Source: Guyparkeria hydrothermalis (GTDB lineage: Bacteria > Pseudomonadota > Gammaproteobacteria > Halothiobacillales > Halothiobacillaceae). From it: a stretch of 64,000 nucleotides of DNA. Position numbers and translations under genes: made by a program. The notes under the pieces were generated by a model. It had not been told where the DNA came from and did not search any database. It was given only the letters and a program-made list of their open reading frames with translations. Positions within the stretch are counted from its first letter, which is position 1, and every line of letters begins with the position of its first letter. Of this stretch, positions 3,718 through 60,663 are shown piece after piece. The stretch covers positions 682,001 through 746,000 of the forward strand of contig NZ_JAJSED010000001.1 in assembly GCF_023555385.1 (NCBI RefSeq). The letters run 5' to 3'.

Positions 3718-4680
3718 TCAGGACCCCGACTCGCACCCAACGTCGCGGTCCACTGGCTCGGTAATCCATACAAAATCGTAGGCTGGCGCCGCCTGTGCAG
3801 GCGTCTCCACCGAATCGATCGGCAACATGCCAATTGCAACCACGCCCTGCCGGTTTCCCGCCGACCGTTGCAGCCAGAAACCGGCACCGCGGTCCAGGCG
3901 AGCGTGCTGGTTGCCCATCACTCCCACAACGAGGTGCTCGGGATAATCCCTGTGCGCCTTCAGTAGCGCATCCGCCATCAACATATCCCGCGCAACCTGC
4001 GCCCGCGCCAGGCCACGTGCCGATTCGGCATCGATACGCCCGCAATGCGCTTGCTGGAGGTCCTCGACGAGATTGGCCTGATGTATCTCGGGTAACGCCA
4101 ACCCCGGCCCAAATCGCTCGATCGCCTCGACCTCCTGCGTCTGCAGTTGATCCTGCCAGGCCTCTTCACCCGCCATCGCCACAGCAAGTGCCTTTCGCCG
4201 AGGCAGGTTCAAGGGCCAGAGCGGCCATTGCCGCGCTGTCGCCTGTTCGAACAGTCCGCCGTAGTGCTTCCAGCCCCATCCTTCGAAGTCGAACCCGCCC
4301 TGCTTCGCCCGTTGCTTCGGTCCAATCGCATCGAGATCCACATTCATCACGTCGGGCGAGCCCGGCACCCCCAAATCCAGTTGCTCCAGTGCGAGGACAA
4401 TCGGGCGATCCAACGCGCGCAACATCGTTAGTTGTTGGCGATGCACAGCAGCCGAATCGTGGACTTCACCCAGCAGAACCACGTCAGCGGCCTGAATCCG
4501 ATCGAGAACCGTGGCTTCGTGAACCGCATCACCATTGCGGTCCAACCACGTGCCTACCTCGACCGCCGGGGTGCCCGTCGCCGCACACCCTCCCAACAGC
4601 GTTGCGAGAACAAATCCGGCCAGCCAATGCGTCAGGCCGCGCAGGAATCCGGATCGGTCTTGACGGGCGATTGCCGTCAT
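3718..4680 (-). CDS. ChaN-family lipoprotein (haem-binding/iron-regulated type)
   Basis: About 320 residues from the ATG at 4680; an in-frame ATG at 4704 is the alternative, and a longer open frame to 4806 is not supported. The N-terminus has a positively charged region, a hydrophobic segment and a lipobox LLGGC (C32), so it should be a lipid-anchored envelope protein. The body matches the ChaN/DUF399 (Tiki-like) family, with LLGEVHDS, LALEQLDL and MGNQHAR segments typical of its conserved His and Glu positions. ChaN of Campylobacter binds two haems at a dimer interface. A haem role here is inferred from family only. Confidence 0.75.
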   Translation of the reverse strand: MTAIARQDRSGFLRGLTHWLAGFVLATLLGGCAATGTPAVEVGTWLDRNGDAVHEATVLDRIQAADVVLLGEVHDSAAVHRQQLTMLRALDRPIVLALEQLDLGVPGSPDVMNVDLDAIGPKQRAKQGGFDFEGWGWKHYGGLFEQATARQWPLWPLNLPRRKALAVAMAGEEAWQDQLQTQEVEAIERFGPGLALPEIHQANLVEDLQQAHCGRIDAESARGLARAQVARDMLMADALLKAHRDYPEHLVVGVMGNQHARLDRGAGFWLQRSAGNRQGVVAIGMLPIDSVETPAQAAPAYDFVWITEPVDRDVGCESGS

Positions 4681-57732: not shown

Positions 57733-58533
57733 ATGCCGAATAAGGAGTTCTTAGAAAATAGCCCTCTTTACCGGAAGTGGCCTATTTCCAAAATACCGCA
57801 CACCGCCGATCAGCTACCGAAGCCGAACATAAACATGGCTTGCCAAAAGTGTGATTCGCATCAGACATTTGTCATGACAAACACCCCTAGCGAGGGGGAA
57901 TCGTACGGCAATTATCCGACAAGCGGACTAATCTATAGGGCGCGCTACCTTTGCGTCCACTGTCAACACTATGAACGCCACTTTCTCATAAAAATTGCAA
58001 CTGATCGGCAATCTGCGACGAAAGTTGGACAATATCCACCATGGGAAATTACTGGCAACAAAGAAATTGAACGTTTACTTGGGGAGCATTCAGGTTATTA
58101 CAAAAAAGGCTTAATCTGCGAATCTCAAGGATTCGGCATTGCGGCGTTCGGATACTACCGTCGCATTGTTGAAGAAATTATTGACGGATTGCTTCAGGAA
58201 GTAGCTGAACTCCTAGCGGAAGAAGAATTGCGAACCTACGAACTGGCGCTTGAAAAAACCAAAAAAACCACTGTAACCCAAGAGAAAATTCAATTAGTCA
58301 AGGATTTACTTCCTCCCATTCTCCGCCCGGACGGAATGAATCCGCTTCAAGCTCTACACTCAGCTCTTAGTGAAGGGCTTCACGCAGAATCAGATCAGAA
58401 ATGCCTTGAGTACGCACAAGCTGTCAGGGAAGTCCTGCTATTTCTTGTGAGTCAAATCGCAGCGAGTCGAAAATCAGCTCGGGAGTTTACTAGCAGCATG
58501 CGCAAATTACTTGAAAAGCGAGCAACATCTTGA
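57733..58533 (+). CDS. Hypothetical zinc-ribbon protein, AT-rich and probably acquired
   Basis: 266 residues, not recognised with certainty. Cys pairs C37-xx-C40 and C74-xx-C77 form a zinc ribbon. The helical C-terminal half (about 125-255: SQGFGIAAFGYYRRIVEEII) is reminiscent of DUF4145-type domains, found in some restriction and defence proteins. The coding sequence is far richer in A and T than every neighbour and uses AAA, GAA and ATT codons freely, so recent transfer is likely. The start is well placed after AAGGAG. It sits between the nrdAB terminator and the repeat island. Confidence 0.75.
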   Translation: MPNKEFLENSPLYRKWPISKIPHTADQLPKPNINMACQKCDSHQTFVMTNTPSEGESYGNYPTSGLIYRARYLCVHCQHYERHFLIKIATDRQSATKVGQYPPWEITGNKEIERLLGEHSGYYKKGLICESQGFGIAAFGYYRRIVEEIIDGLLQEVAELLAEEELRTYELALEKTKKTTVTQEKIQLVKDLLPPILRPDGMNPLQALHSALSEGLHAESDQKCLEYAQAVREVLLFLVSQIAASRKSAREFTSSMRKLLEKRATS

Positions 58534-58639
58534 TCCGAGAGCGGAAAGCTCCAATACGAACTAACAGCGCTCATGCGATTTCGCACGCTTCCAAATGTAA
58601 GTGTTACGAATTTCGCTAGGCATCGAGCGCGCGAGGCAC

Positions 58640-58831
58640 TTTCTCTTGCTTGCCCAAGAGAAAGTACCCAAAGAGAACGGCACCCCTCGCCTTGGCCCTG
58701 CGGGCTTCCCTCCCGTCCGGGGTGCCGCGGACGGGTCGGTTCGACGCGACGTCCTGTCGCGGCGAACCTCGGCGCAACGTCCTTGTTGCGCCGTCCCTGC
58801 GGCACCCCGGCCGGTCGGCAAGGCGAAGGGG
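58640..58831 (+). repeat. Structured repeat element, copy A
   Basis: 192 nt. Predicted helices: P1 TTTCTCTTG/CAAGAGAAA (58640-58648, 58655-58663); P2 CCCC-CGCCTTG / CAAGGCG-GGGG (58683-58694, 58819-58831); P3 GCCC-TGC-GGGC (58695-58705); P4 GGGGTGCCGC/GCGGCACCCC (58719-58728, 58799-58808); P5 GGTTCG..GCGAC-GTCCT-GTCGC..CGAACC (58738-58768); P6 CGGCGCAAC-GTCCTT-GTTGCGCCG (58770-58793). The same helix order occurs in copy B. Confidence 0.75.
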
Positions 58832-58912
58832 ACTTCCGAGCCTGATGATTCGGTGCCAAGAGCAATTTGTTTGGTGCGGCTTTGGGTTGGGCACGCGCCG
58901 TTGGCGCGTTTC

Positions 58913-58970
58913 GCGAGCTAAGCTCGCTCCCACAGGGGATCGGGTGGTTGTGGGAGCGGCCCTTGGCCGC
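58913..58970. repeat. REPIN-like inverted pair of REP sequences
   Basis: GCGAG-CTAAG-CTCGC hairpin (58913-58927), then GCTCCCACA (58926-58934) and its exact inverse TGTGGGAGC (58949-58957), then GCGGCC-CTT-GGCCGC (58956-58970). The GCTCCCACA core flanked by a GC hairpin is the form of Pseudomonas-type REP elements. Two convergent copies make a REPIN/BIME. Confidence 0.7.
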
Positions 58971-59053
58971 GAAAGCCGCTGTGCGGCTGTCCGGCGTTCA
59001 AGTAAGTAACACGGCCTTCCTTACCAAGGGTTTCTCGGCTGGCAATCCCCGGG

Positions 59054-59247
59054 CCCCTGTGCCTTGCCTCGTCAGCGATGGCTTGCCGGGCCTGGGCGGC
59101 CTGGACGCCGCCCAGAGGTTCGCCGCGACAGGACGTCGCGTCGAACCGGGCCCGACAGCAAGCCAGCGCTGACGAGGGAAGCCCGAAGGGCCAAGGCAGC
59201 GGGGTGTCCTTGTCTTTGGGTCCTTTCTATTGGACAAGCAATAGAAA
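59054..59247 (-). repeat. Structured repeat element, copy B (inverted relative to A)
   Basis: 194 nt, read on the minus strand from 59247. P1 TTTCTATTG-CTTGTC-CAATAGAAA (59247-59224); P2 CCCCGCTGCCTTG / CAAGGCACAGGGG (59204-59192, 59066-59054); P3 GCCC-TTC-GGGC (59191-59181); P4 CCTCGTCAGCG / CGCTGACGAGG plus 14 further pairs (59177-59149, 59092-59067); P5 identical to copy A (59147-59117); P6 TGGGCGGC-GTCCAG-GCCGCCCA (59114-59093). Confidence 0.75.
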
Positions 59248-59478
59248 GGGCCTCGGGCGTTGGCAACGCGGCACAACCAGAACCGCCAAACGACACAAGA
59301 GCCCGAAACCTAACCCACCTCCACCAGAAGGCGCCCTGCTCCTCCCACAGCACACGGCGCTTGCGCTGATATACGGCAACCGGCATGCTTCATACCCGCG
59401 GATCAGACGGTTACACAGGACGTAACCAACACTGATCGCCGCTTTCTAGGACGAAATACAGGACAAGGAGAAGTCCCG

Positions 59479-60663
59479 ATGTGGATGCTAGCCGGCGTAC
59501 TCGCGCTGATCGGCCTGACCGTGTATCTCTATCGCACACGGCGCAAAGACCAGTGGAAGCTAAGACCCTTCCCTTCCAAGGTCGGGAAACGCCAGCCCGC
59601 AGTCACCGCGCCGGACGGTGCGCTGTATACGTTCAAGACTCGGCCGAATCGCCCTCCTCTCCATCGATTCGGCTATGAAAAAGCGCCCGACGTCGAAATG
59701 CGCGTCAAGCGCAAACGTTGGTGGGACCGCCCGTTCACGGCGGTCGGCATCTCCGTCACCTGTCGGACGGGCAACCCCGACTTTGACCGTGCCTTCTATC
59801 TGGTCACGGATGTGGCACCCGTCTGCCGGGCCATGTCCATGAGCCCCAGGACGCAGGCAATGATGTTGGATATCAAAGCCGCGAGCGAATCCACAGGTGT
59901 CCAGTTCCGACAGTTTGTGCTGCGGCGCGGTCAGATATGGATCGAAGTCGCTACCAAAAAGCGCAAGCAGTTCGTGGCCGCCCTCCCGACGTTGGCCAAG
60001 GTCGTCGTGCCCTCGCTGCGCGAGCTTTCCGAGGTAATGGAGACAGAGCTACCCGACACGGCGCGGCACATGAAAGACCACGTCACCCCCAAGGCCGCCC
60101 TGATCAGCAGCATCGGCGGGGCTCTGTTCATCGGCGGGATCTTCTTACTCTTGCGGCAAATATTCTTTCCACAACCGGCGCCGCTCGAGACCTGGCCCCT
60201 GGTCGAGGCGGCGCTTTTGGCCGCCCCCATTGGCTTCGGGCTGCTGGTCGTTCTGACGTTGACGTGGATGGGCCGAACTTCCCGAACCCATGTTGTCCTG
60301 CTGGAACTGCTGGTTACGGGACTCATTGGCGCCGGGCTGACCAGCTATAGCCTGTTGCGTGAAGCGAACATGGCGCTCGATTTCTCGCCGGGAGAACGTC
60401 ACGTGGTGGAGGTTCGGGAAAAAGAGGTATCCCAAGGGCGCCATACGCACTACTACCTCCACCTCGCCCCATGGCATGAATCGCAGGACTTCACGGAATT
60501 CAGCGTCAGTTCCTCGCTATTCGACGCCGTCCGTGAGGGCTTCCCACTGGTCATTGAGGAACACCCGGGCGCCCTTGGCATCGGCTGGGTGCGCCTGATC
60601 CCTCCACGCTTCCGACATGTCGAGGAATCGACGGCTTCGACCTCGCCCAGCCCGACTCCATGA
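59479..60663 (+). CDS. Hypothetical integral membrane protein
   Basis: 394 residues, not recognised. Predicted membrane segments are 2-18, 206-229, 241-264 and 272-293. A soluble domain (about 20-200) lies between the first two, and a C-terminal soluble part (about 300-394) follows. The ribosome site AAGGAG precedes the start. Composition is normal for the genome, unlike the gene at 57733. It lies just beyond the repeat island and has no obvious partner. Confidence 0.75.
   Translation: MWMLAGVLALIGLTVYLYRTRRKDQWKLRPFPSKVGKRQPAVTAPDGALYTFKTRPNRPPLHRFGYEKAPDVEMRVKRKRWWDRPFTAVGISVTCRTGNPDFDRAFYLVTDVAPVCRAMSMSPRTQAMMLDIKAASESTGVQFRQFVLRRGQIWIEVATKKRKQFVAALPTLAKVVVPSLRELSEVMETELPDTARHMKDHVTPKAALISSIGGALFIGGIFLLLRQIFFPQPAPLETWPLVEAALLAAPIGFGLLVVLTLTWMGRTSRTHVVLLELLVTGLIGAGLTSYSLLREANMALDFSPGERHVVEVREKEVSQGRHTHYYLHLAPWHESQDFTEFSVSSSLFDAVREGFPLVIEEHPGALGIGWVRLIPPRFRHVEESTASTSPSPTP

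Follow-up and report, generated by a model that had tools for sequence, protein, structure and literature searches.

A paired, outward-folding element with a TwoAYGGAY core and a predicted triple-helix pseudoknot in Guyparkeria hydrothermalis and its relatives

The window analyzed here, i.e. the whole 64,000-nt stretch at positions 682001-746000 of the Guyparkeria hydrothermalis genome, contains two inverted copies of a structured element, A and B, which lie head to head between an AT-rich accessory gene and a gene for a 394-aa protein (Table 1). The two copies were proposed in an earlier sequence-only reading and are confirmed by arms of 64, 59 and 24 nt, complementary at 81%, 85% and 96%, respectively; that reading had drawn both copies too short, and their extents in Table 1 are the longer ones that we now assign. 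It had also placed the pair beside an AT-rich foreign gene, correctly, and this turns out to be one case of a genus-wide pattern. The 266-aa product of the accessory gene has no Pfam match (E ≤ 0.001) and no PADLOC match (E ≤ 0.01), and the gene occurs in its own genome only, among the 27 family genomes searched; the 394-aa protein beside B has no Pfam match at E ≤ 0.001. The spacer between the units holds a separate REP-like inverted repeat (58904-58979), and a similar one was seen by eye in the spacer of another locus of the genus (L053). No sigma-70-like site was found in 58400-59500, which counts against reading the pair as RNA.

Both units fold far more stably than expected from their composition, with z = -7.95 for A on the minus strand and z = -8.89 for B on the plus strand; in neither case was any of 200 dinucleotide shuffles equally stable. 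The outward fold is the same in the two and comprises a long basal stem with its side hairpin, a two-hairpin branch and a separate 3' hairpin (P1), beyond which an outer stem, recovered from the alignment of relatives, is present in both. The GTCC and GTCCT loops of the sequence-only reading are complementary to what the folding strand presents, namely GGA loops.

Table 1. Features of the element pair and its neighbors, in window positions; triple-helix pseudoknots are predicted
Feature	Position	Strand	Remarks
AT-rich accessory gene, 266 aa	57733-58533	+	3' end toward unit A
Unit A, "L" type, subtype S-L, complete structured element	~58578-58833	-	outward, toward the AT-rich gene; from alignment and pair counts
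A, outer stem UCGCGCGC ... GCGUGCGA	58581-58634	-	near unit boundary; helix 8, 97.8% of cells paired
A, predicted triple-helix pseudoknot, whole	58637-58682	-	S1 and third-strand covariation
A, pseudoknot S2 hairpin	58637-58666	-	loop GGCA is the S1 partner
A, pseudoknot third strand UUCUCUUU	58670-58677	-
A, pseudoknot S1 5' strand UGCC	58679-58682	-
A, small side hairpin GCCCGCAGGGC	58695-58705	-	alignment helix 6
A, RF01731 core	58706-58821	-	51.5 bits
A, hairpin 2, AGGAC loop	58738-58768	-	CsrA-type
A, hairpin 1, loop ACAAGGAC	58771-58792	-	CsrA-type GGA loop
Spacer between head-to-head units A and B	58834-59050	.
Unit B, "R" type, subtype S-R, complete structured element	~59051-59309	+	outward, toward the 394-aa gene
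B, RF01731 core	59058-59181	+	53.1 bits
B, hairpin 1, loop CCUGGAC	59093-59114	+
B, hairpin 2, AGGAC loop	59117-59147	+
B, side hairpin GCCCGAAGGGC	59181-59191	+
B, predicted triple-helix pseudoknot, whole	59205-59251	+	S2 loop GACA is the S1 partner
B, pseudoknot S1 5' strand UGUC	59205-59208	+
B, pseudoknot third strand UUGUCUUU	59210-59217	+	its G opposite a U-A pair replacing C-G
B, outer stem UCGGGCG ... GCCCGA	59253-59306	+
394-aa gene beside unit B	59479-60663	+	also present at this site in relatives (L064, L065)

The element had not been recognized as a named family, which is wrong for its core: both units match Rfam RF01731 (TwoAYGGAY, clan CL00106) above the cut-off of 43 bits, A alone being listed in the whole-window scan, and each has the two neighboring GGA-loop hairpins, enclosed in a multi-branch, by which we judged membership. 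TwoAYGGAY is a candidate RNA from 2010 (PMC2864571), and CsrA binding was predicted for it from its loops by Gardner and Eldai in 2014 (PMC4333381); Rfam still types it solely as "Cis-reg". The RF01731 model covers the middle of the unit only, its 168-position match stopping before the pseudoknot module and the outer stem. Pairing, dispersal and a triplex go unmentioned in the available portions of the RF01731 accounts (PMC2864571, PMC4333381 and PMC11701678), and a narrow search of the open-licence literature found no paired or triplex description of the element. In the G. hydrothermalis genome (2.39 Mb, a single contig), RF01731 has 10 matches over the cut-off, to which B adds one from a separate scan, and the genome has 11 modules at six sites; the pair is not, as the sequence-only reading had allowed it might be, a matter of only two copies in simple decay. 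Matches to the family turned up in 19 of 57 relatives but in none of 14 control genomes; the model reached its cut-off in 2 of the 19 loci from named genomes that were tested, both from Halothiobacillaceae, and one Pseudomonas unit scored 29.9 bits, under the cut-off. Among the relatives, G012 is Halothiobacillus sp. DeMMO4_1: of 328 60-mers sampled from its stretch L127, 192 recur in the named record L180. Our data suggest that TwoAYGGAY is one module of a larger paired element.

The structure was assessed on 89 distinct units extracted from 50 loci of the genus by a motif search, which missed degenerate units for that reason (e.g. the L units of L064 and L069). For 27 representatives (80% identity filter, the row of L064 being kept regardless), RNAalifold predicts 70 pairs, 36 of them with changes on both sides, so the compensatory change first read from A and B is upheld in relatives; 95.9% of the 1,870 alignment cells pair, and the covariation score is 0.370 as against 0.139 in shuffled alignments (0 of 500 reach the observed value) and at most 0.075 when the structure is slid. 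Among the 49 pairs predicted from both strands in the 89-unit alignment, the outward strand has G-U in 114 cells vs A-C in 28, an excess suggesting that selection acts on the fold of this strand, which is also the more stable of the two in 79 of the 89 units. Folded single-stranded DNA would likewise give more G-T than A-C, which argues against inferring RNA from this excess alone. The secondary structure and the identity of the folding strand are, by comparison among relatives, established.

The 3' end of the unit is predicted to form an H-type pseudoknot with a third strand. The NNCA loop of P1 is complementary to an upstream UGNN tract (S1), and a pyrimidine linker parallels the P1 purine strand base for base. 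The linker/purine types are UUUCUUU/AAAGAAA (89 units), UUCUUUU/AAGAAAA (54), UUCUCUU/AAGAGAA (11) and UUGUCUU/AAUAGAA (7), the last of which has a G over an inverted U-A pair; a G.TA triplet is known in DNA triplexes. The linker matches at 6 or more of 7 positions in 171 of 206 distinct modules, the others being 12 without an upstream TGNN and 23 with a third-strand score under 6/7; since modules were collected with the pattern TTGNNC(A/G)(A/C)GCAA and the third strand was taken as the best of a few registers, conservation of the pattern and of the third strand is partly a product of that selection. S1 is complementary in 168 of these 171 units (shuffled mean 67, maximum 86) and, after collapse to 26 distinct types, in 22 of 26 (shuffled mean 9, maximum 17); over the same 26 types the third strand fits at 170 of 182 positions (shuffled mean 140, maximum 157). 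Units with an asymmetric stem tell two readings of these tracts apart, Hoogsteen pairing and strand switching of two pyrimidine tracts: 62 of 71 show a full mirror match and 0 of 71 a direct repeat, and strand switching was rejected on this count. Covariation of S1, and tracking of the S2 purine strand by the predicted third strand, are established by comparison. The window units themselves carry UGCC/UUCUCUUU (A) and UGUC/UUGUCUUU (B), so that the C-G to A-T change in P1, reported by the sequence-only reading, is answered by a change in the predicted third strand. Covariation, the bias to one strand, and the concerted change of S1 and third strand all support the selection on structure that this reading had proposed.

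The GGA loops raise the question of CsrA. Hairpin 1 has GGA in 88 of the 89 genus units; hairpin 2 has GGA in 57 and CGA in 32, and this loss counts against CsrA binding. Among 88 units from named genomes, 54 have two perfect GGA hairpins with 5-bp stems on the sense strand (antisense 2 of 88; one mononucleotide shuffle of each, 0 of 88), one has three, 13 have one and 20 none, the last group counting against CsrA binding; the 33 with fewer than two do not show the two or more loop-exposed GGA hairpins, present in A and B, that we looked for as a mark of CsrA/RsmA-sequestering sRNAs. Of 157 units with exactly two GGA hairpins, 147 have their GGAs 28 or 29 nt apart, and this spacing, where both hairpins exist, is fixed as judged by comparison; we infer that such a frame would suit a CsrA dimer. 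A further GGA in the P1 loop (64 of 89 units) was considered as a third CsrA site and rejected, because its pairing in S1 of the pseudoknot accounts for it. The csrA gene has one match in the G. hydrothermalis genome (G000) and was matched in 27 of the 30 genomes searched. Two aspects of its distribution count against CsrA binding: sister-genus genomes without the element (G013, G015 and G017) have csrA as well, and no csrA match was found in G010, an element-bearing draft that is 94% complete.

Neighboring units no more than 1.5 kb apart are frequently head to head, an arrangement that comparison establishes: 34 of 38 neighbors in the genus (group g1) and 17 of 27 in the loci from named genomes are so arranged. 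The order is rarer in groups g2 (5 of 12) and g3 (0 of 2), and its lack of universality counts against the explanation that we favor below; in all these sets the remaining neighbors are mostly tail to tail. Head-to-head partners, compared at a slightly looser threshold, often carry different 3' modules, as in 21 of 23 cases from named genomes, 5 of 5 in g2 and 19 of 34 in g1. The named-genome loci were chosen by an exact hairpin pattern, from a search with one form of the P1 hairpin that returned at least 120 stretches, with 82 matches scanned; among the matches listed are Pseudomonas, Xanthomonas, Pseudoxanthomonas, Thioalkalivibrio, Stenotrophobium, Selenomonadales and Ruminococcus, and because some of the loci are from Halothiobacillaceae, named-genome counts do not stand purely for other families.

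A covariance model of the 3' module detects it at E ≤ 1e-6 in 80 of the 369 genomes sampled from the class and at E ≤ 1e-7 in 35 of 299 from the phylum, and certain other phyla have the module too; the class-wide scan took 16 candidates per genome under stricter filters, making its counts per genome lower bounds. Module number ranges from 0 to 149 between related genera. The relative G011 has 149 copies of the 3' module, many identically scored, and the module is absent from 7 of 8 genomes of the sister genus g4. A Y1 transposase (RAYT) was found in 15 of the 30 genomes searched and in none of G000, G005, G011, G014 and G016, and mobilization by RAYT was accordingly rejected for the genomes without a Y1 match. 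The copy number in G011, the near-absence from g4 and the missing Y1 match together look like recent non-autonomous spread. Carriage by plasmids or phages was also rejected, neither collection giving a blastn match. Two observations on array and unit form belong here. Loci of G011 (L112-L119 and L270-L289) are arrays of alternating CA-type and GG-type units, often near contig ends, mostly head-to-head at ~408 nt and tail-to-tail at ~205-278 nt. By eye, units in L162 and L164 (Pasteurellaceae and Hydrogenophilus) have the same 3' module, but where the two GGA hairpins would stand there is one long hairpin with UUUGAGCGNAGCGAGUUU, and they are possibly a second class of the same element; L220 (a Bordetella MAG) resembles them but is longer.

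Within the genus, an AT-rich outer flank is present at 23 of 28 L-type units (S-L and M-L) vs 1 of 49 units of the other main subtypes, a post hoc contrast, since the subtypes (S-L, M-L, S-R, R and N-L) were defined after flank GC was known, and one in which orthologous sites are not independent, the L-type units representing roughly ten separate sites. Eight units of odd spacing stand outside it, with AT-rich flanks in 3 of 5 (o125), 0 of 2 (o101) and 0 of 1 (o100); clearly AT-rich flanks are the exception among the named-genome loci (3 of 123 units). The neighboring gene turns its 3' end to the L unit in 26 of 28 cases when that gene is picked automatically; taking the gene that Pfam supports at L053 and L065 raises this to all 28. 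At five sites (nrdB, trpE, dnaE, lysS and L053) the L unit and the core gene are conserved and the gene between them differs in every genome; the names nrdB, trpE, dnaE, lysS and dapC/dapD were assigned to genes by eye, and the assignment of rlmM is backed by Pfam. In a comparison of 45 ORFs, main cargo genes had no matches between loci, the few inter-locus matches being to apparent core genes, unit sequence or island ends. The cargo includes an XcyI-type restriction-modification pair, AAA/OLD/GajA-like ATPases, an FRG protein and a PIN protein, and 9 of 17 hand-chosen neighboring proteins match a PADLOC model, some weakly. As judged by eye, homology on the core-gene side ends at varying points within or past the last codons, and on the unit side at the outer stem (S type) or ~150 nt past it (trpE site, M type). 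The junctions at the trpE, dnaE and nrdB sites thus vary, no fixed recombination site is seen, and an attC-like junction is not supported. In three genomes a Tn7-like set directly follows nrdB (L067 in G003, L068 in G001 and L070 in G002), where elsewhere there is a single AT-rich gene. It consists of three ORFs of equal lengths across the genomes, which in L067 have Pfam matches to a TnsA-like protein, a Mu/rve transposase and TniB, and extends from ~100 nt past the nrdB end to near position 4500 of the locus sequence; G002 and G003 also have an element pair ~19 kb farther along the same contig.

What we state most strongly, on comparative grounds, is the existence of a paired, outward-folded element with TwoAYGGAY as its core and a predicted triple-helix pseudoknot at its 3' end. 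As to what it does, the element probably acts as RNA, and we put at about even the chance of the full explanation, namely that A and B are outward-read structured RNAs, probably binding CsrA, that have spread as a non-autonomous mobile element. A and B would then be two different non-coding RNA units, head to head, each laid out as a basal stem with side hairpin, two GGA-loop hairpins, the 3' H-type pseudoknot and an outer stem, with the pyrimidine linker occupying the S2 major groove as a Hoogsteen-paired third strand. Transcription would diverge from the spacer, one CsrA/RsmA dimer could bridge both GGA loops, and the triplex knot may protect the 3' end of the RNA; with their ends so protected, the copies could jointly serve as a dispersed CsrA sponge, or each as a local CsrA-responsive RNA. 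The pair would spread as a non-autonomous mobile element. We read the bordering of defence-like turnover spots by two unit subtypes of the genus as history rather than as a demonstrated recombination function: pair and cargo would share safe sites after core genes. A bolder version, which we offer tentatively and regard as rather doubtful, is a widespread mobile class of two-part RNA in which two unlike outward RNAs, both combining two CsrA-binding hairpins with a triplex pseudoknot like that of telomerase RNA, spread free of RAYT and in some lineages border sites of anti-phage exchange.

The main rival reads the units as DNA. They would bound, on the left and on the right, a cassette platform or non-autonomous transposon that functions in folded single-stranded form, like integron attC sites or REP elements, and the genes at L ends would be exchanged cargo. 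Much of the data above would fit: partners that differ in type, AT-rich flanks concentrated, if post hoc, at L units, L units facing the 3' ends of neighbors, cargo that differs between genomes at five conserved sites, and heavy amplification in G011. Yet the junctions vary (by eye), the AT-rich flank is not general among named-genome loci, no Y1 transposase/RAYT was found in five of the genomes searched, and conserved GGA loops with a triplex pseudoknot are not known as features of attC and REP sequences; we consider this rival possible, though clearly short of probable.

It is improbable, in our estimate, that the pairs are bidirectional terminators or insulators between operons, kept by foreign genes to limit read-through. 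All six sites in the G. hydrothermalis genome are intergenic by the ORF reading and both window units are highly stable, as such a role would have it, but neither A nor B has a T-run after P1 or after the outer stem, and terminator-like matches number four against 1.3 expected, one of them, in A, overlapping the pseudoknot linker. Furthermore, nrdB has an ordinary terminator of its own (inverted-repeat pair I8), as one cargo gene at the trpE site appears by eye to have, and termination does not need GGA loops or third-strand covariation. We regard as very unlikely a functionless repeat family that retains its structure as a relic of some earlier role or through gene conversion between copies: S-L units from most sites are 92-98% similar and module number differs widely between related genera, but compensatory change, one-strand bias and third-strand covariation across genera are unexpected from decay or conversion.

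Other RNAs were considered and set aside. A sub-threshold match to sRNA-Xcc1 (RF02221; 48.4 bits, cut-off 53) lies elsewhere in the genome, at 1143309-1143396 (+), and is the only one there; the sRNA-Xcc1 family is linked to integrons, and the match may mark an attC-like site. The model does not match the element itself, and the link to sRNA-Xcc1 and integrons was dropped; sRNA-Xcc1 is described as an 88-nt RNA (PMC2996969). RsmU of Xanthomonas is a 3'-UTR RNA reported as limited to Xanthomonas (PMC7694677), and judged by this description no link to the element was found. The skipping-rope RNA, a further candidate, brought up nothing relevant in the literature among the matches listed, and the available portion of a language-model paper on RNA structure holds nothing on the element (PMC12513839).

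Roughly one in five of the genomes sampled from the class have the 3' part of the element, which is also found in other phyla. Should the element be transcribed and its RNA bind CsrA, a CsrA sponge in multiple copies would lie hidden in many genomes; should it function as DNA, defence genes would seem to be moved by a route as yet unknown. The larger paired element and the predicted triple-stranded knot go beyond the known TwoAYGGAY core, and to our knowledge comparative evidence for Hoogsteen pairing is uncommon.

Under the favored reading as CsrA-binding RNA, the units compare with the CsrB/CsrC/RsmX/Y/Z sRNAs, which also expose GGA in hairpin loops; they differ in that they have just two GGA hairpins, spaced at 28-29 nt, occur as many dispersed copies and carry a predicted 3' triplex pseudoknot, and CsrA binding is here a prediction. 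As modeled, the 3' module would resemble triplex pseudoknots in the order of its parts (S1, a pyrimidine L1 along S2, the S1 3' strand, a short L3 and the S2 3' strand) and in its parallel third strand, a topology known from telomerase RNA and SAM-II. It would differ from these in its long third strand, with 7-8 triples and C over G-C, in the G over U-A of one unit subtype, and in being, by prediction, a module of a repeated element without known ligand. REP elements, with units of ~20-40 nt, are mobilized by RAYT. The present element is like REPINs and BIMEs in that palindromic units stand between genes in inverted pairs scattered over the genome, and unlike them in that its units are ~260 nt, its partners usually differ and it is present in genomes without a Y1 match. 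With integron attC sites it shares structure conserved over sequence and folding on the bottom strand of the gene that abuts it by its 3' end; unlike them, it shows no fixed junction by eye and no cassette array, and its units stand in head-to-head pairs.
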